DNA from: a virus | DNA length: 30,255 nucleotides | IMG/VR virus record: IMGVR_UViG_3300048838_001775 | Span: 1 to 30,255 of that record | Direction: 5' to 3' (one strand) | Shown here: positions 3,967 to 21,898 of the stretch, piece by piece | Layout of the letters: every line of letters begins with the position of its first letter | How positions within the stretch are numbered: position 1 is the first letter of the stretch | The notes under the pieces: generated by a model | Told to the model about the DNA's origin: nothing | The model's database searches: none | The model's input: only the letters and a program-made list of their open reading frames with translations | Program-made: the position numbers and the translations under genes

Positions 3967-5603
3967 GCTTCTTCCTCTGGATTGGTGCTGGCCGGGAGCG
4001 GTTGCGGCGCTGGGGCCGCTGCCGGAGCCAGGCCGTTGTCTCGAATCCAGCGCTGCTCCTTGACAATCTGCGGCTGGATCGATTCGTGATCGCCGCCGAT
4101 CATCTCGGCGTATTCCTGGTCGAGCGTGGTCAGATACATTTCCACCCGCTTGGAGGCGGCCTCGACCGCCTTGACCGGATCGATCTCGCCGGGAGCGTCG
4201 CCGTCCCAGCGGGTGCCCAGCCAGGCGCGGCGAATCATGGGATCTTGGAGAAATCCGGGCGCGTTCAACCGGCCAAAGACCACCGCCTCGGTGATGATCA
4301 CCTCATAGACCGGCTGGCAGAACTGGCTGGCCAGCCAATGCCGGCGGCGGTAGAAGTAGTCCCAGGCGTCGAGCAGGGCGGCACGGGCTGCTGAGTATGA
4401 CGCGGTGAAATGCTTGATCAGCACCTCGAAGGGTAGTTCCAGGCACATGCCGATCTGGCGGGCAATGGCCACGAAAAAGGGATCAAAGGCGGCGTTGGGC
4501 CGGGCCGGGTTGACCGTCTCCACTCGCTGGCCGTCGCGCAGACCGAGCACCGAACCGTAGCCCAGCTCCAGGCCAGTGGCATCGACCTGGCTGGCGGTGT
4601 CGCCGGTGGGATTGGTCTGGGTCGGGGCCGGGCCGAACTCCGGGTTGCCAGTTTCGTTGTAGACAAACACGGTGAGCATGCCGCTGACCACGGCCGCCAT
4701 GACCTCGGCGTCGGTGTAGCGGCCCAGCTGCTTGATCAGCTCGATTACCGGGGCCAGGTAGGGCACGCCCCTGGTTTGGCCAGGGCGGGTCTTGTCCTTG
4801 AGGAGGAGGGCCAGGGGCGTGCCGTCCTGGGCAAAGGCGCGGAGGGAGCGCCAGCTCAGGTCCACCAGCTTGCCGCCCTGCAGTTTCCAGCGGCGAGCGG
4901 GGTGGCGATTGCAAACATGGAAGATTTCGGGGGCGCCTAGGGCGTCTTTCTGCACCCCGGCAACAAGGGTGTCGGTGTCCTTGCCGAAGTTTGGGTTGCA
5001 GATCCGGGCCGCCTCGATCAGTTCCAGGCGGGTGGTGTAAGGGGAGCCGGGCCGGCGCACGCGCGGCAGGTTGACGACCAGGTCGCCGTCTTCGAGCACG
5101 CGCAGGAAGGCCAGGGCCTGGAGCAGGCTGAAGGGCAATTCGCGCTCCAGGTCAAACTCGCGGGTTTCGGTGGCGAGGAGAAATTCCCGCTCGGCGACGC
5201 GTTCCCAGGCGTCGGCCTGGTCATCGCTCAGGCGCAGCACTTGGCGATCGACCCGGGCCTTGACCCGCAGGCCGCACCCCACCACCTTGGTGATGTTGGT
5301 CTTGAGCGCCCCGGCGGCAATGGCGTTGTTGCGGGCCAGGTGCTGGGAATCCTCGCGCAGGGTGGCGAGATCCGGGACAATGGCGCTGTCGGCGTCCATC
5401 TCCCGCCGGCCGCCGTGCTGGTTGGCGCGGCGGGTCTTGTCGGCCGAGGCGTAGCCGCCGGAAAGCATGGCCATGCGGGCGCGGGCCTGGAAGCGGCGCT
5501 GGCCGGCGGCCGGGTTGAACCAGTTGATCAGGTGATCGGCCGCGGTCAGGCCGACCTCGATCTGGCGCTGACCAAGGGTGATGGTGTTGGGCAGGCGGCT
5601 CAT
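3963..5603 (-). CDS. Portal protein, lambda family, 546 aa
   Basis: At 546 aa this matches the lambda gpB-type portal (533 aa). Typical features are the N-terminal QRRFQARARMAMLSGGYASADKTRR region, the segment DLATLREDSQHLARNNAIAAGALKTN, and FTASYSAARAALLDAWDYF near residue 400, all characteristic of this family. The dodecameric portal forms the DNA entry vertex and docks the terminase. The C-terminus is Pro/Ala-rich. The start overlaps the stop of the preceding gpW-like gene by ATGA, and the stop overlaps the protease start. A role other than portal is unlikely. Confidence 0.93.
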   Translation of the reverse strand: MSRLPNTITLGQRQIEVGLTAADHLINWFNPAAGQRRFQARARMAMLSGGYASADKTRRANQHGGRREMDADSAIVPDLATLREDSQHLARNNAIAAGALKTNITKVVGCGLRVKARVDRQVLRLSDDQADAWERVAEREFLLATETREFDLERELPFSLLQALAFLRVLEDGDLVVNLPRVRRPGSPYTTRLELIEAARICNPNFGKDTDTLVAGVQKDALGAPEIFHVCNRHPARRWKLQGGKLVDLSWRSLRAFAQDGTPLALLLKDKTRPGQTRGVPYLAPVIELIKQLGRYTDAEVMAAVVSGMLTVFVYNETGNPEFGPAPTQTNPTGDTASQVDATGLELGYGSVLGLRDGQRVETVNPARPNAAFDPFFVAIARQIGMCLELPFEVLIKHFTASYSAARAALLDAWDYFYRRRHWLASQFCQPVYEVIITEAVVFGRLNAPGFLQDPMIRRAWLGTRWDGDAPGEIDPVKAVEAASKRVEMYLTTLDQEYAEMIGGDHESIQPQIVKEQRWIRDNGLAPAAAPAPQPLPASTNPEEEA

Positions 5604-7315: not shown

Positions 7316-7656
7316 ACGCAAAAAGGGCGGCAACTATGCGGGTTGACAGACCGGAACGTAGGCACCGGCGGGCGCGAGGCCCCCCGCATAGCGCCGCCCA
7401 AGGAGAGCAGGGCCATGCTGCGGACGCAAAAAAACCGCCATCAAGGGGGAGAGGCGGCGCGTCCGCCTACGTTGTTCGGGCTGTCAAACCCGGCCACGTC
7501 TTTTTTCCGTGGCGAGCATACCGTACCCGAACCTGAGGCCTGGATGCAAGCGGTTTCTTCATGCCCGGCCAGCCAACCCCTTGAATCTCCAGGATGGCTG
7601 CGATAGCATGCAGAGAGCCACCACCACCGCCATCAACAGCCACCCCGGAGAAAAGC
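7316..7656. other. Gene-poor stretch with nested inverted repeats
   Basis: No convincing gene is seen here. GGGCGGC-AA-CTATGCGGG (7325-7342) pairs with CCCGCATAG-C-GCCGCCC (7383-7399), giving a 16-bp stem with one small bulge around a 40-base loop. GCGGACGC (7420-7427) pairs with GCGTCCGC (7459-7466) around an inner CCGCC/GGCGG stem. A longer imperfect pair beginning TTGACAG and ending AACGTAGGC lies at 7343-7363 and, inverted, at 7465-7487. Structured RNA, operators or a small terminal-inverted-repeat element are all possible. Confidence 0.5.
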
Positions 7657-8720: not shown

Positions 8721-8975
8721 TCACTCCCGCCACACCTCCTTGTCGATCTTGATCGAAGACACATAGTCGCGCAGCTCGCTGGCGAGCAGGCGCAGGCCGC
8801 GCGATCCCTTGGCGCGGCCGTAGGCGTGCACCTCGCCCTCCCGCACCATGCGGTGCACGGTCCGCTCCGAGCAGGCCAGGATCTGGGCCGCCTCGGCCGG
8901 GGCCACCAGCACGGTCTGATCGAGGAAGGCCTGCTTGTAGGCCAGCACATCATGCCGGGTGATCCGCTCATTCAT
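8721..8975 (-). CDS. Excisionase/AlpA-like helix-turn-helix protein, 84 aa
   Basis: The product MNERITRHDVLAYKQAFLDQT... contains a winged HTH of the excisionase or AlpA kind: VLVAPAEAAQILACSERTVHRMVREGEVHAYGRAKGSRGLRLLASELRDYV. This is the helix-turn-helix followed by a wing and a positioning helix. Start at 8975 overlaps the terminase stop by ATGA, so it is translated with the packaging genes rather than with int. A role in packaging-site recognition or transcription is therefore as likely as excision. It ends base to base against hicB. Confidence 0.75.
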   Translation of the reverse strand: MNERITRHDVLAYKQAFLDQTVLVAPAEAAQILACSERTVHRMVREGEVHAYGRAKGSRGLRLLASELRDYVSSIKIDKEVWRE

Positions 8976-10861
8976 ATCTGCACCCCCTTGGAATACACGA
9001 TCGGGCCAGCGGGCCGGCCCGGCTGCTCCCGCCTGAACCTGCGCACGCCGATGATGTCGGCCGCGGCCAGGGCATAAACCCAACAGTCCCACTGGTGATT
9101 ATCCTTGCCCTTGGGACACTGCCAAAAGCCGTGGTCGTCCCGGTACTCGGCGCACAGCTGGCGGGCATAGTCGGTGGTGGTGGCCGCATCCAGGCAGATT
9201 GCGCCAGGGTCGTCCGGCTCCCGCTGCAGCTTGCCGGCCAGCTCGTCCTTGTAGAGGGTGACGTTGATGTTGTAGCGGCGAAGCCCGCCCGGGATCTTCT
9301 CCATCCTGCCTTCGCGCGACGGGTAATAGTCCATCAGCTTGACCGCCCACCCGGTCTCCAGGGTGCGTTGCCCCTTAATCGGCCGCCAGAAAGGATACTG
9401 CTTGCAAAACCGGTAGACCTCGTTGGTGCGGCTGTGCTTGGGCTTGAACGGGTTGGTGCCGCCGCCGGAGTCGATCCAGCCGGACATGGCCCGGTGTTCC
9501 GTGCCATCAGCATCCAGGCGCGGCTGCTGGGCGATGTCGTTGAGCTGGGCAAAGGTCTCGACAGAGCCGTGCTCAATCTTGGTCACGGGCAGGTCCTCGC
9601 CAAAGCCATAGGCCACTACCTTGTAGTGGAAGCCGATCTGCTGGGTGTCGGCGATCACGGCCAGGTAGCAGGTATCGCGCGGCACCACCCCGCGCGGCTG
9701 GGCCTCGTCGCGCAGGCGGAGGATGAAGTCTTCCTTGCGGTCCTGCTGCTCATATTGATAGTCCTCGGCCTCGTAACCGTTGGCCCAGGCAATCTTCTCG
9801 ACCACGCCGCCGTGCTTGGCCTCCAGCCAGGCGGTGGCGATTTCGTGCAGCGGCACATCGCGGCAGTCCCAGGCGCGGTGGTGGAAGCCCACCGTGGACG
9901 GACGGGCCACCTCGGCCCCCTTGATGCACACCCACTCCGGTGTGGCCAGCATCTCCATCCGCTCCAGCTCGGTGATGGCGGAGCCGCACAGGGTGCAGTT
10001 GTAGGTGATGTCGGTTTCCGGGGTGATGTCGGCCGCGCTCAGGTCTTCCGGGATGTTGAGGCCGTCGCCACTGGGACGGAACAGGCCGTCGCAGTGGGGG
10101 CAGCGGTGATGGTGCTCCCACACCTGGCGGCAGGCCATGGTGCCCTTGTAGATGACCAGCTGGGCTGGGGTAGAGGCGAAAAACCGCTTGTAACGGCCGC
10201 GATAGAGCCGGTTGCGCTTCTTGATGATGGCGATGGGGCCGGTCTCGCGGCCGACCCGCTCGGGGTATTTATCGACCTCATCGCCAAAACAGTGCTTGGC
10301 CGCGAACGTGGCCATGGACGCGGCCGAGTTGGCCCAGGCCGGCCGGATGGTGACCCCGTGGGAGAGCTTGATCCGGGCGAGGGTGATATCGTTTTCGCGG
10401 TCGCCGATGTAGCGCCGCAGCCGTTTGGAGGCCCGCACCAGCGGGATCAGCTTTTCCGAGGTGACCTTTTCACCGGTGGCCTCGGTGGGCATGAGGTAAA
10501 AGATATTGCCCGGATCGACATCGGCGGCCCAGTGCAGACAGTTGAGCATGCTGTTGGTCTTGCCCGATTGGTCGACCCCGCAAAACCAGATTTCGCGCAC
10601 ATAGGGCAGACCATAGGTGTCCATGATCTTGACCGTGTGTGGGGCCAGTTCGTGCCGCCAGGGACCGGGGTGGGGCTCCTCGGTGACCACGCGAAAGAGC
10701 CGGGCGTGCTCGCTGACCCGGATCTTTTCCGGGGTGCGCATCCGCCGCCGGATCGGGGTGGGGAGCCGGTCGAACCGGACCTGCTGGCCAGCCAGCCGGG
10801 CGCGGATCTCCGGCGGGACAAAGGCGGGGATGGCGCGGGGCAAGGGAGTCGGGGACATCAT
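8972..10861 (-). CDS. Terminase large subunit, GpA family, 629 aa
   Basis: The 629-residue protein has the GpA-type ATPase with Walker A GVDQSGKT (K101) and Walker B HCFGDEVDKYP (D194/E195), a zinc-binding pair CPHC...CTLC at about 250-290, and a C-terminal nuclease region rich in acidic residues. It translocates DNA into the prohead and cuts concatemers, normally at cos sites in this family. It overlaps TerS upstream (ATGA, 10858-10861) and the HTH gene downstream. Length is close to lambda gpA (641 aa). No intergenic cos is obvious next to it. Confidence 0.95.
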   Translation of the reverse strand: MMSPTPLPRAIPAFVPPEIRARLAGQQVRFDRLPTPIRRRMRTPEKIRVSEHARLFRVVTEEPHPGPWRHELAPHTVKIMDTYGLPYVREIWFCGVDQSGKTNSMLNCLHWAADVDPGNIFYLMPTEATGEKVTSEKLIPLVRASKRLRRYIGDRENDITLARIKLSHGVTIRPAWANSAASMATFAAKHCFGDEVDKYPERVGRETGPIAIIKKRNRLYRGRYKRFFASTPAQLVIYKGTMACRQVWEHHHRCPHCDGLFRPSGDGLNIPEDLSAADITPETDITYNCTLCGSAITELERMEMLATPEWVCIKGAEVARPSTVGFHHRAWDCRDVPLHEIATAWLEAKHGGVVEKIAWANGYEAEDYQYEQQDRKEDFILRLRDEAQPRGVVPRDTCYLAVIADTQQIGFHYKVVAYGFGEDLPVTKIEHGSVETFAQLNDIAQQPRLDADGTEHRAMSGWIDSGGGTNPFKPKHSRTNEVYRFCKQYPFWRPIKGQRTLETGWAVKLMDYYPSREGRMEKIPGGLRRYNINVTLYKDELAGKLQREPDDPGAICLDAATTTDYARQLCAEYRDDHGFWQCPKGKDNHQWDCWVYALAAADIIGVRRFRREQPGRPAGPIVYSKGVQI

Positions 10862-11391
10862 TGCTCACCCTCCCATTGGATATGCAAACTCTCGCCAGCC
10901 ACCTCGTTGAAGGCCTGGCTGACCACCTGGTCCATGCGCTCAAAGACCTCTGGGGCCCGCATCGCGTCGCCCCCGGCGGCCAGGGTGATGTCAACCTGGG
11001 CGTCGTGGAGTTGGCGGCGGATGACCTCGCGCAGGTCGCCGATCAGGGCCGCGACCACCGACCAGGCGGTGTCGGCGTGCAGCCAGGCGGCGTCCTCCTC
11101 CCGGCGCATGCGCTCGGCCTTCATCTCGGCGATATCGGCTTCGGCCAGTTCCCGGCGGTGCATCGACTCGGTCCGGGACAGGGCCGACGGGTCCGGCTGC
11201 TGGGCCGTTTCCAGGCCCTTGCCATAGACGGCCACCTGGTATTTGGACAGGGATTTGTCCTGGTTCAGGACCGGGAACCCTTTGGCCTTGATGTCCTGAT
11301 AGAACTTGCCGATCGAGACCGCATACCCCTGCCCGATCAGCCACTCATGGGCCTCCTTGCGAGAGCGGAAGGTTTCGGTCTCAGTGGTCAT
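10858..11391 (-). CDS. Terminase small subunit, 177 aa
   Basis: The protein begins with a domain resembling phage DNA-packaging HTH modules (FRSRKEAHEWLIGQGYAVSIGKFYQDIKAKGF), then a charged helical middle (HRRELAEADIAEMKAERMRREEDAAW) and a C-terminal helix set ending LHIQWEGEQ. Nu1-like small subunits have this N-terminal winged HTH and central coiled helix (lambda gpNu1 is 181 aa). It lies directly before and overlaps TerL. The start lacks a good ribosome site and sits three bases after the stop of the previous gene, which suggests reinitiation. Confidence 0.75.
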   Translation of the reverse strand: MTTETETFRSRKEAHEWLIGQGYAVSIGKFYQDIKAKGFPVLNQDKSLSKYQVAVYGKGLETAQQPDPSALSRTESMHRRELAEADIAEMKAERMRREEDAAWLHADTAWSVVAALIGDLREVIRRQLHDAQVDITLAAGGDAMRAPEVFERMDQVVSQAFNEVAGESLHIQWEGEQ

Positions 11392-11394
11392 GGC

Positions 11395-11832
11395 TCAGGT
11401 GGTGGCGACGCGGACGGGATGGGGGCGACCGCAGAGGCGGCCCAGGTCCTCGACCGGATTGAGGGTGGCCGGACGCACCGGGCCGACAAGGGCGGGGCGT
11501 TCCATGATCGGAGCGGATGCGCCGGACTGGCCGCTATCTGGCTTCGTCGAGGCCGCTCGTTGCCGGCGGGTGGCGATGCGCTTGAAAACGAGGTAGCCGA
11601 GCAGATCCAATTCAGAATCTTCGTCCTCATCCTCTTGCCCACTTTTGATTCGGCTCAGCTTGTCGTCCGCGCGGACGTTGATCTGCTCGATCGGGTCGGC
11701 CCGGCTGAAAATGCGGACCGGCTCAAGCACCGAGTTGCCGTACTTGCGATTTTTCTCGATTAAAAATTCGGCGATGAAATCGCACTCCTCAACAATGTCC
11801 AGGGCGGTGCCGGTGAGGTGGTCGCGGATCAT
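11395..11832 (-). CDS. Nmad1/DUF1599-like nucleotide-modification-associated protein, 145 aa
   Basis: Residues 1-75 carry a recognisable core: DFIAEFLIEKNRKYGNSVLE, PVRIFSRADPIEQINVRADDK, LSRIKSGQ. This is the DUF1599 or nucleotide modification associated domain 1 pattern, seen in phages and linked by comparative genomics to modified bases. Residues 80-145 are an acidic stretch then a basic, Pro-rich tail that may be flexible. The ATG at 11832 has GGAG eight bases upstream and overlaps the stop of the 56-aa zinc-ribbon gene. It lies just upstream of the terminase, so it could act on DNA before packaging; no modification enzyme is seen in the window. Confidence 0.7.
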   Translation of the reverse strand: MIRDHLTGTALDIVEECDFIAEFLIEKNRKYGNSVLEPVRIFSRADPIEQINVRADDKLSRIKSGQEDEDEDSELDLLGYLVFKRIATRRQRAASTKPDSGQSGASAPIMERPALVGPVRPATLNPVEDLGRLCGRPHPVRVATT

Positions 11833-11999
11833 TCTTTTGGCTCCATGGGTTTGGGCCAGGAGACATCGCCGCTGGCGATCTCCTCCTCGCAGGTTGGGCA
11901 GAGCCCGGCCGACCATGTCGAGGACAGGCTCGATATGGTCTCGTCGGGGAGTTCGATTTCTTGGCCGCACCAAGCGCAGAGAATAATCGCTGCTGGCAT
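11829..11999 (-). CDS. Small zinc-ribbon protein, 56 aa
   Basis: A 56-residue protein, MPAAIILCAWCGQEIEL..., with two Cys pairs: C-A-W-C near residue 8 and C-P-T-C near residue 34. They are spaced as in a zinc ribbon, with an acidic C-terminus. The ATG at 11999 directly follows the TAG of the previous gene, and its own stop overlaps the next start by ATGA, so the reading frame is fixed by tight coupling on both sides. It probably binds zinc. Nothing more specific can be said; small phage zinc ribbons often contact nucleic acid or polymerase. Confidence 0.7.
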   Translation of the reverse strand: MPAAIILCAWCGQEIELPDETISSLSSTWSAGLCPTCEEEIASGDVSWPKPMEPKE

Positions 12000-12218: not shown

Positions 12219-12261
12219 GGCTTCAATCTCCTCCTCGCAGAGTGGCCGAACCAGGCGCAAT

Positions 12262-12304
12262 GGATAACAACCATTATTGGTTCCTGATAATGATATAGTT
12301 AGAT
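12262..12304 (-). repeat. Short attC-like inverted repeat after the 66-aa gene
   Basis: On the minus strand, directly after the stop of the 66-aa gene, ATCTAAC (12298-12304) fits the integron R'' consensus RYYYAAC. It is followed by CATTAT-N9-ATAATG and then GTTATCC (12262-12268), giving TAAC...GTTA outer pairing. At about 43 bases it is shorter than known functional attC sites and the last box deviates from GTTRRRY. It may be a degraded attC or simply a hairpin terminator without a T tract. Confidence 0.4.
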
Positions 12305-12505
12305 TCAAAGACGAAACAATTCGTCAGCATTTACGAAAAAATCCAGAGTCTCGCTATTATGCCCGTTTGCATGAATAATAAAATGGACTCCCTCATTTGT
12401 TTTCTTTTGAACAGCAACACGGAACTCTGGGGTGAATTTCACGTCTTCACCTGTGACTGAGTTCTTCCCTTCAACTTCCATTCTGAGCAAATTTTCAAGA
12501 GTCAT
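12305..12505 (-). CDS. Uncharacterised 66-aa protein in a possible integron cassette
   Basis: The ATG at 12505 has AAAGGTG five bases upstream and encodes MTLENLLRMEVEGKNSVTGED..., a small alpha/beta protein with FRVAVQKKTNEGVHFIIHANGHNSETLDFFV as its core. It is clearly more AT-rich than the surrounding phage genes. It starts 25 bases after the GTTAGAT end of the attC-like site and ends directly before a second RYYYAAC box, the normal layout of a gene cassette. Many cassette genes encode such small proteins of unknown role. An upstream ATG at 12523 exists but has no ribosome site. Confidence 0.6.
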   Translation of the reverse strand: MTLENLLRMEVEGKNSVTGEDVKFTPEFRVAVQKKTNEGVHFIIHANGHNSETLDFFVNADELFRL

Positions 12506-12530
12506 TTTTTCACCTTTTATCAAAAAGTTA

Positions 12531-12623
12531 ATCTAACAATGCCGCTCAAGCCGACCAGCGGAAGCAGCGTTTCATTCCAAGGCCTGGCCGGTGGCCGCTG
12601 GCTGGCTTACCAGCACGTTATGC
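12531..12623 (-). repeat. attC-like integron cassette recombination site, 93 bp
   Basis: Read on the minus strand: R'' box GCATAAC (12617-12623), L'' TAAGCC (12604-12609), L' GGCTTGAG (12545-12552) and R' GTTAGAT (12531-12537), the last a perfect GTTRRRY. The arms fold as expected: AAC/GTT, GTGC/GCAT, an unpaired central spacer, AAGCC/GGCTT, then AGCGG/CCGCT, with a variable terminal loop. The TAA stop of the upstream gene lies inside R'', as in typical cassettes. Known: integron integrases recombine such folded single strands. None is encoded in this window. Confidence 0.7.
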
Positions 12624-12866
12624 CTCGTAAACCTCCAGCAACAGAGACTCTATCGTGAGCTTATGCACGCCTGGCCGAAAAAGACCACTGTTGAGGAAAT
12701 TACTTATCTCCACCGCATCGGCCCAAGAAAGTCCGCGCCCTGGCCAGATTTCGCTCCTAAACTGCTGCACAGGCAGGTCAAGCACCAGTTTCCGGCGTTT
12801 GTAGCGGTGCCAATACTTCCCCTCATTTTCCAAACCAGGAGACAACAACCGGCAAAATATCTGCAT
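12618..12866 (-). CDS. Uncharacterised 82-aa protein, stop codon inside attC-like site
   Basis: The start at 12866 has GGAGG eight bases upstream; starts at 12872 (ATG) and 12875 (GTG) are possible but too close to that site. The protein, MQIFCRLLSPGLENEGKYWHRYKRRKLVLD..., contains a basic cluster and a second part with WPGRGLSWADAVEISNFLNSG. It has no signal or membrane segment. Its TAA lies in the R'' box of the attC-like site, while its 5' end touches the 435-aa gene without a visible cassette boundary. It may be a cassette gene whose left junction was lost. No family is recognised. Confidence 0.55.
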   Translation of the reverse strand: MQIFCRLLSPGLENEGKYWHRYKRRKLVLDLPVQQFRSEIWPGRGLSWADAVEISNFLNSGLFRPGVHKLTIESLLLEVYEA

Positions 12867-12871
12867 ACCCA

Positions 12872-14179
12872 TCACCTCCCCGCGAAGGTCAGGCAGGCTT
12901 CGCCGCGAAGGACACGACGGGCGAAGTCGAGCATTATTTCCCGATCCGGGTCGATGTAATCGGCCACGGTCTCGTTTTGGGCGGCGAGCAGGTCGTTGAG
13001 GCGGGCGTTTTCATTTTTGAGGGCCTCGCAGTGGCGCTCGATTGCGCTAATTTTCTCCTCGCTCTCCCCATACATTTTGTCGAGCTTTGCCAAGACCACC
13101 ATGCGGCGCGCGGCGACCTTGACCGTGGATTCGTCCGACGGCTGCGCCTGCAAGGCTTCCCGGATCTCCGAGACTGTTTCCACCAAGGAGCTATTCTCGG
13201 CCAACAGCCGATCTGCCGAGCCTGCAGCCAGCGCCAGGGACGATTCGAATTTGTCCTCCCTGGCTTCTGCCGCCTCGGCTAAATTACGGAAACGGGCGAG
13301 CGCGTGCACCAGCTCGGAGATGGCCCCGGTGATCTCGGAGACCTCGGCATCTTCGGGCAGGCCGAGGGCCTCCTTGATATGGCCGAGATCGCGGCCGGCG
13401 TCGTCCAGATCGGTTAACCAGCCGGCGGCGGTGGAGGTCACCCTTGCGAGCGTCCGCTCAGCCTCTTCCAGCATCGCCGCTGTCTGCATGGCCGCCAGAG
13501 TAATAGCGGACAGCTCTGTTACAATCGAAGCCTCGAGCCCAAGGGCGCGGGCCAGGTCGAGCAGGCCGGGGTCGGCCGGCCGGGTGGGGATTGCTTCGCT
13601 GTGCTCGCAATGACGGGGGGCAACCGACACCCGCACCGCCTCAATCAAGCCTGCCCTATCCTCGCCGGTATAACCGACGATCTCGGCAATCCTGGCCAGG
13701 GCCTCCCTGTCGATCGCCACCGGGACAGCCGGGTCGAGCATATCCGCCGCCAATTTGCCCAGCGCTCGCCCCACGGCTTCTGGCCGGTTGCTAATGGCCC
13801 CATAGAGGGCGGCGCACGAGCCGCAAACTTTGTCCCCCTTAATGCTCTGCACCTTGACACCCGTTCGTTTGCAGTTTTCGCACGTCCCTGTCGTCATTTT
13901 ACCCATACCCTCCTCCACTTGCGTTTTTAGAGCCGCCAGTTCGGCGGCGTCGATCAATTCCAGGCCAGGGGGCAGGATGCGCCCCTGGCAGACGGCGCAG
14001 TAATTCGATCCGACCGCGACCGGACCGGCAAGATTTTCGTTCCAGCCCCGTGCCGAGGCGGCCGCTCCGGCCTCGAGATTTTGCGTGGCCCGGCACAGGG
14101 CCTCCCAACTCGACTTGGTCAGGCGGGTGGGCAGGTTCGAGGTGGCTGGGCAGATACGGATGGTAATGGGGCCACTCAT
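12872..14179 (-). CDS. Zinc-finger/coiled-coil protein of unknown function, 435 aa
   Basis: The ATG at 14179 overlaps the primase stop (14176-14179). The N-terminal 60 residues (RLTKSSWEALCRATQNLE...) resemble nothing named. Cys pairs follow at YCAVC near 60, TCENC near 100 and VCGSC near 117, suggesting two zinc sites. From about residue 200 the protein is helical, with coiled-coil-like stretches (VHALARFRNLAEAAEAREDKF and SEEKISAIERHCEALKNENARL). Residues around 188-198 read PRHCEHSEAIP, the translation of a common interspersed repeat. It sits between primase and accessory genes, so a role in replication or recombination is possible. Confidence 0.6.
   Translation of the reverse strand: MSGPITIRICPATSNLPTRLTKSSWEALCRATQNLEAGAAASARGWNENLAGPVAVGSNYCAVCQGRILPPGLELIDAAELAALKTQVEEGMGKMTTGTCENCKRTGVKVQSIKGDKVCGSCAALYGAISNRPEAVGRALGKLAADMLDPAVPVAIDREALARIAEIVGYTGEDRAGLIEAVRVSVAPRHCEHSEAIPTRPADPGLLDLARALGLEASIVTELSAITLAAMQTAAMLEEAERTLARVTSTAAGWLTDLDDAGRDLGHIKEALGLPEDAEVSEITGAISELVHALARFRNLAEAAEAREDKFESSLALAAGSADRLLAENSSLVETVSEIREALQAQPSDESTVKVAARRMVVLAKLDKMYGESEEKISAIERHCEALKNENARLNDLLAAQNETVADYIDPDREIMLDFARRVLRGEACLTFAGR
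13588..13617 (-). repeat. Interspersed bacterial repeat inserted in frame
   Basis: The minus strand reads CGTCATTGCGAGCACAGCGA followed by AGCAATCC, matching the widely dispersed palindromic-type repeat whose core is CATTGCGAGC...GAAGCAATC and which is common in intergenic DNA of many bacteria. Here it lies inside the 435-aa gene, keeps the frame and encodes RHCEHSEAI. It has probably inserted into a tolerant linker between the zinc-finger and helical parts. Confidence 0.75.
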
Positions 14180-20836: not shown

Positions 20837-21898
20837 GTGAGCGTCCATCAGCTCCCAGATGGCCGCTGGTTTGTCCAATGGCGGAACGCCGAGGGCAAGC
20901 GGGTCCGGGAGTATTTCGGCCGGGGCGGCGACGCCGAGCGGGCGGCGCGGCAGCGCAACCATGACCTCGGCCTGGGCGCTTCCGGACTGGCGGCAGGCCC
21001 CACCTTTGCCGATCTGGCCGAACAGTATTTCCTGGCCCGGCGGTCCTCGGTGGCAGCCACCACCCGAACCGACCTGGCCTGGAAACTGGAAGGGGTGATC
21101 CTGCCCGCCCTGGGCGAGTTATCGGCCCTGCGCGTGGATGCACCCGCGCTCGATCAGTACGTGGCCGCGCGGTTGGCGATTGGACGCAAGCGCACCAGCG
21201 TGCACCGCGAACTGTCCATCATCCGGGCCGTGCTCAGGTGGGGTGTCAGCCGCCGCTTGATCGCCCACAACCCGATGGAGGGCTACCCCATGCCCAGCCG
21301 GGATGACGCCATCCTGCAGCCGCCCACTTCGGCCGAGCTGGCGGCCATCCACGCGGCCGCGGCCCCGCACCTGCAGCGGGCCATCCTGTTGGCCGCCTAT
21401 ACCGGCATGCGGCCAGGATCGAGCGAGCTGCTTGGCCTGCGCTGGCAGGCGGTGGACCTGATCAATGGCACCATCTTTGTCGAGTCGGCCAAAAAAGGCG
21501 GGATGCGGGCGAGGGTGGTGCCGATCGCAGAGGCCCTGGCAACACAATTGCGGATCTGGTTGCAGGCCGACCGGCAAGCGGGTAAGGTGGAGTTTGTGGT
21601 GCACTACCATGGCCGGCGGGTGGAGCGGATCAAAACAGCCTGGCGCGCCGCCCTGGTCCGGGCCGGGATCACCAGGAGAATTCGGCCCTATGACCTGCGC
21701 CACCTGGCGGCGTCAACCATGCTTGATGCCGGGGCCGACTTGAAAAGCGTAAGCGAGATCCTCGGCCACTCCAGCCCCGATCTGACCTTGCGCACCTACC
21801 AGCACACCAGCACCGCTTTAAGGCGGGACGCAGTAGCGAAAATTGGTAGCCTGTTACCAATTGATAGCACTGGAGATAACGGAAAAACAAAGAAATAA
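20837..21898 (+). CDS. int: Tyrosine recombinase integrase, 353 aa
   Basis: The N-terminal 50 residues are an AP2-like arm-binding type region (HQLPDGRWFVQWRNAEGKRV), followed by a SAM-like core-binding domain and the catalytic domain. Catalytic positions: R192 in TGMRPG, the Lys hairpin AKKGG, R288 in YDLRHLAAS (the usual His of HxxR is Tyr285), H311 in LGHSS and the nucleophile Y321 in TYQHTS. The start is GTG at 20837; no in-frame ATG precedes it. The 3' end of the gene contains the first possible arm-type repeats, and the attP core lies 17 bases after the stop. Confidence 0.93.
   Translation: MSVHQLPDGRWFVQWRNAEGKRVREYFGRGGDAERAARQRNHDLGLGASGLAAGPTFADLAEQYFLARRSSVAATTRTDLAWKLEGVILPALGELSALRVDAPALDQYVAARLAIGRKRTSVHRELSIIRAVLRWGVSRRLIAHNPMEGYPMPSRDDAILQPPTSAELAAIHAAAAPHLQRAILLAAYTGMRPGSSELLGLRWQAVDLINGTIFVESAKKGGMRARVVPIAEALATQLRIWLQADRQAGKVEFVVHYHGRRVERIKTAWRAALVRAGITRRIRPYDLRHLAASTMLDAGADLKSVSEILGHSSPDLTLRTYQHTSTALRRDAVAKIGSLLPIDSTGDNGKTKK

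Follow-up and report, generated by a model that had tools for sequence, protein, structure and literature searches.

A temperate phage with a Desulfobulbaceae-like host probably carries a single integron gene cassette, inverted and placed between the genes for replication and those for the terminase, where related phages carry integron modules. The phage is IMG/VR virus record IMGVR_UViG_3300048838_001775, and its 30,255 bases constitute the window analysed here. The attC site of the window is weak by itself, and the case rests on the relatives.

The window encodes a large terminase subunit of the GpA type (TerL, 8972–10861, minus strand) and a small terminase subunit (TerS, 10858–11391, minus strand), assigned by homology and position without a Pfam match. 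Other phage genes include those for a lambda-type portal and a D5-type helicase; no tRNA was found in the record. Against Rfam at gathering thresholds the window gave a single match, a C4 antisense RNA (7325–7404, minus strand, 50.5 bits), and none to attC. RNAs of this type are regulators in temperate phages, P1 and P4 among them. The host is probably a sulfate-reducing bacterium, as judged from the closest TerL relative, which is 76% identical and encoded in the Desulfobulbus sp. genome bin L135. The tyrosine integrase at 20837–21898 (plus strand) is that of the phage itself. It scores 34.6 bits against the integron-integrase profile, for which the cut-off is 265, and it lacks the IntI-specific insert that is kept in the IntI of the related contig L009. 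No intI gene was found in the record, which may be incomplete; the phage integrase was the sole match.

The attC site and the limits of the cassette

The 93-bp element at 12531–12623 on the plus strand is most probably a genuine integron attC. It consists of R'' ATCTAAC (12531–12537), L'' TCAAGCC (12546–12552), L' GGCTTA (12604–12609) and R' GTTATGC (12617–12623), all on the plus strand. As in class 1 attCs, L'' contains an extrahelical C. The spacers measure 8 nt between R'' and L'' and 7 nt between L' and R', the usual order being 7 and 8, and the box order and bulge side agree with established attCs, for example TTCTAAC-7-TCAAGCC...GGCTTA-8-GTTAGAC. We trained a covariance model on 35 known attC arms, with the window left out; it matched 12531–12623 on the plus strand alone, scoring 15.0 bits (E 0.18 over the record). 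Class 1 integrons, the integrons of Vibrio, Shewanella and Tetrasphaera phages, and an array of the class 1 type in one viral contig supplied these arms. A second model with 83 training sites gave 14.9 bits, also on the plus strand. Both scores are borderline and fall below the 20-bit cut-off of Qi et al. (PMC9892861). The site was absent from the matches of a filter-free search with the first model, for which we suspect a hit-length limit. A hand-made attC scorer used alone proved too unspecific. Folded as DNA, the minus (bottom) strand recovers the R and L stems, with an energy that does not improve on that of shuffled sequences (z −0.6). The models detected one attC in the window, fewer than the two required for a CALIN, the arrangement without intI.

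The ends of integron cassettes are set by the G|TT cut rule, and a cassette opens at its 5' end with bases (TTRRRY) complementary to the R'' of its own attC. In the window the plus strand has a single GTTAGAT, at 12298–12304, which pairs with R'' at 7/7 positions. Since this single copy pairs with R'', the predicted cassette as excised under the cut rule spans 12299–12617 on the plus strand (TTAGAT ... attC ... G), 319 bp with a GC content of 43.9%. With the attC on the plus strand, the cassette therefore does not consist of the upstream gene plus the attC. The boundary rule alone is symmetric, so the polarity rests on the models and the bulge. An attC-like structure with a 7/7 boundary arose on the plus strand within 2 kb of the small terminase gene in 2 of 300 shuffles, and at any position of the window in 16% of them; the real window holds two further such matches, both on the minus strand and presumably due to chance. 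We found no attI at the start of the array: the left boundary is unlike the attIs of 12 related loci, and attI likeness of this flank was rejected on its rank of 479 among 625 GTT sites. The window thus shows neither the intI nor a recognisable attI of a complete integron. No exact empty site was found. In L135 the interval from the homologue of the 497-aa gene to TerS is short and cassette-free, but there the whole interval is missing and not the cassette alone.

The gene within the cassette (12305–12523, minus strand) encodes 72 aa from a TTG or 66 aa from the ATG at 12505, upstream of which lies the ribosome site AAAGGTG. It runs antisense to the attC and co-directionally with the terminase genes. 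A gene in the direction of the attC is customary, not strictly defining, for cassettes; the gene of the window cassette is antisense instead, as in the related phage arrays. The GC content of the open reading frame is 38.4%, against 63.2% for the window, which places it in the lowest 0.25% of 225-bp stretches. Pfam and PHROG returned no match to the protein, and matches to DNA ligase in phage records (E 0.5 or worse) were judged to be chance. Homologues of the 72-aa family were found in viral contigs only; the family was absent from plasmids, phage records and 74 Desulfobulbaceae genomes, and a first genome scan was also empty. Its members, in L001, L025 and L042–L046, belong to diverse phages and share the pattern MxTLExLLRM...TPEFRVAVQ...HNGDTLDF. 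In L044 the homologue lies directly 3' of an antisense attC within a two-attC array, and no attC was found alongside the homologues in L001, L025, L042, L043 and L045.

On the other side of the attC, a gene of 84–85 aa (12618–12875, minus strand) ends in a TAA stop codon (12618–12620) that overlaps R'. Its overlap with the 497-aa gene upstream makes it more probable that this gene is resident in the phage than that it belongs to a cassette; no relatives of it were found in viral contigs. In the gene that follows the cassette, the 5' part (12222–12280, CAWFG...CEEEIE) resembles a damaged copy of the zinc-ribbon of the next gene (11829–11986, CAWCGQ...CEEEI).

Integrons beside the terminase genes of related phages

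TerL homologues were taken from viral contigs and bacterial genomes. Arrays of attCs are present in L007, L008, L012 and L019, always on the strand opposite the phage genes, as is the attC of L044. The TerL relatives L007 and L008 contain five to six attCs antisense to TerL, and in most pairs each R'' matches the R' of the next attC at 6–7 of 7 positions; throughout the phage set, R'' and the next box are complementary at 7/7 positions at 21 of 25 junctions. A full intI adjoins TerL in L009, L014 and L018, with TIGR02249 scores above the cut-off (290–380 bits). Among solved structures, the L009 IntI is closest to 2A3V, the integron integrase of Vibrio (263 bits), with XerD far behind at 76 bits. 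In three loci only the C-terminal part of an integron integrase is left, set against the start of the terminase (L007:5720–5962, L008:3912–4037 and L136:8828–8956), whereas the cassette arrays persist. Desulfobulbaceae bacterium UBA2273 (L136) has the L008 array as well. This genome bin has several chromosomal integron integrases with attCs in addition to the prophage cassette array, and it is a place where exchange of cassettes could be examined.

The sequence-only reading had called phage-borne attC sites uncommon. That does not agree with a scan of viral contigs, in which at least 570 IMG/VR contigs have an IntI-like gene; the best 80 were examined. In at least 18 contigs, some of them near copies, an IntI gene precedes a co-directional gene for a GpA-type TerL, with a gap that is often below 50 bp or holds TerS and small genes alone. 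Beyond L009, L014 and L018, such neighbours occur in L057–L061, L063, L068–L070, L084/085, L088, L091 and L106/108. The order IntI-TerS-TerL is seen with a different terminase family in L054 and L074, and the Geobacteraceae genome bin L137 has the same intI-terminase layout, with intI, TerS, TerL and their neighbours co-directional. Many loci have an attI-like conserved stretch with a predicted G|TT box before intI. Terminase-side intI genes fall in about six places of an IntI tree with rough bootstrap values; the tree does not show a single origin, and this distribution suggests that repeated acquisition or replacement of intI beside the terminase is likely.

IntI loci adjoining a phage integrase or primase do not count in the core set, since some of them may represent host sequence flanking a prophage. 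In these loci (L065, L073 and L098; L071, L097 and L102), the gene directly after IntI encodes a tyrosine phage integrase or else a large DNA primase; several have inverted cassettes, and they are possibly satellites or prophage edges. One IntI clade (L087, L096 and L104) has attCs downstream of intI on the same strand, unlike all other loci seen. Viral contigs L048, L049, L050 and L051 contain attCs of the class 1 type, some adjoining DNA methyltransferase-like genes, and the array in L050 is long.

The direction of cassette genes was scored on open reading frames with a ribosome site inside cassettes. The terminase-side phage set gave 23 antisense, 2 sense and 15 unclear calls, and each of the sense calls overlies an antisense gene that competes with it. 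In the other viral IntI loci 33 genes were antisense and one was sense, that of L115, whose intI groups with Vibrio. The controls (class 1, Vibrio and UBA2273 chromosomal integrons) gave 0 antisense and 15 sense. By this scoring, the cassette genes of the intI-TerL relatives are systematically inverted. Their pool includes DNA methyltransferase, DHH phosphoesterase and PAPS-reductase-like proteins.

The window cassette lies upstream of TerS, where L014, L018 and L137 carry intI, and its attC has the polarity seen in the related phages. The related phage L024 also has a lone inverted cassette without intI; it separates TerS from TerL, its 7/7 box is at 5330, and its attC is borderline at 19.2 bits. 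The window and its relatives share one design: attC, ribosome site, gene and box.

Origin of the window cassette and competing readings

The cassette would have been inserted by an integron integrase that joined the folded bottom strand of the attC to a G|TT site directly behind the stop codon of the 84-aa gene. This integrase would have acted in trans, from a related phage or host (the more likely case), or would once have been encoded here and since lost. A ribosome site directly 3' of the attC would come with the inverted gene, which could be read together with the packaging genes; the attC itself may still function. Relatives have intI, attI and the attC array at the same place, with inverted genes, intI and terminase pointing one way. 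Given the lack of intI and a left boundary unlike attI, we tentatively favour a stray insertion in trans over a relic for the window cassette. A relic would be what remains of a complete integron like that of L009 or L014 after loss of intI, attI and most cassettes. We regard this as possible but rather unlikely: the locus and the attC polarity are those of intI-bearing relatives and decay of intI is seen in L007 and L008, where the C-terminal part persists by TerL, but the window contains neither an intI remnant nor an attI-like boundary sequence, and its G|TT site directly follows a stop codon, the position expected of a simple insertion.

The low model score, a fold energy close to that of shuffles and the frequency of an attC-like pair with a 7/7 boundary in shuffled windows would all be expected of a chance hairpin, or of an operon terminator, between two phage genes. 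However, the bulge side, box sequences, polarity, locus and GC step all fit an attC, and the layout is repeated in L024, L007, L008 and L044, so that we consider such a hairpin improbable. Still less credible, indeed very improbable, is the arrangement proposed by the sequence-only reading, in which a minus-strand attC closes a cassette that contains the 84-aa gene. The boxes it had placed at 12531–12623 are present and, taken with their context, are better than chance. With a TAA in the box and the next gene starting soon after, the region does look like a gene-attC-gene chain. However, neither model matches the minus strand, on which the bulge would be on the wrong side; no GTTATGC box is present upstream in that orientation; the 84-aa gene overlaps the 497-aa gene; and overlap with a TAA is also a hallmark of the inverted cassettes in L007 and L008. 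The box assignment it had given (R'' GCATAAC and R' GTTAGAT) is thus replaced by ATCTAAC and GTTATGC on the plus strand, and the cassette content by the antisense gene at 12305–12523, the 7/7 GTTAGAT box at 12298 having been overlooked. The broader proposal that a phage captured an integron cassette is supported. The model scan it had suggested did match the site, at 15 bits and on the plus strand instead of the minus strand. It had also named, as evidence against itself, two small proteins confined to phages together with the lack of an attC match. The 72-aa family is indeed found in viral contigs only; on the other hand, a model match exists and the L044 homologue sits by an attC.

Relation to known integrons

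Integrons are usually studied as bacterial devices, with phages as occasional carriers. If they recur in the packaging-region modules of phages, then phages themselves hold, express and exchange cassettes, which makes the origin of the cassettes, the rise of inverted cassettes and the work of phage IntI late in infection testable. We think it somewhat likely that several phage lineages domesticated integrons before the terminase. IntI would lie by the packaging genes with attI ahead and nearly all cassettes inverted, so that cassette genes, intI and terminase make up one co-directional unit, allowing late expression and shuffling and spread between phages, and the window cassette would be a traded unit. 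The whole integrons with inverted cassette genes at this spot in the relatives point to a version, operated by phages themselves, of a gene-capture system best known for the spread of antibiotic resistance.

Cassettes can also insert away from attI, at attG sites, so that one stands alone behind a G|TT with no attI. The window has the same features, a phage operon being the apparent target. The term attG appears in PMC12901181. Phage integrons as such are already known. The accessible text of Qi et al., 2023 (PMC9892861) describes phage-borne integrons and CALINs and reports that IntI1 recombined five of the six phage attCs under test with attI1; its phages include Tetrasphaera phage TJE1, Shewanella phage M16-3 and Vibrio phage Va_90-11-286_p16. 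Like the window, these phages have attCs and cassettes in their genomes. According to that text, at least two attCs were required, whereas the window has one, and the cassettes of TJE1 and PH101 are oriented in the typical way, whereas those of the window and its relatives are inverted. A conserved intI-terminase neighbourhood is not reported in the accessible text, where the word 'terminase' occurs once. We found no report of terminase-side placement or of inverted-cassette arrays in the open literature (subscription papers and preprints were outside the scope), and the two together are apparently a new variant. Class 1 and Vibrio integrons share with the phage integrons the form of the attC, the G|TT boundaries and an intI divergent from the attC array. 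In the former the genes run with the attC (0/15 antisense), whereas the phage genes run against the attC and with intI.
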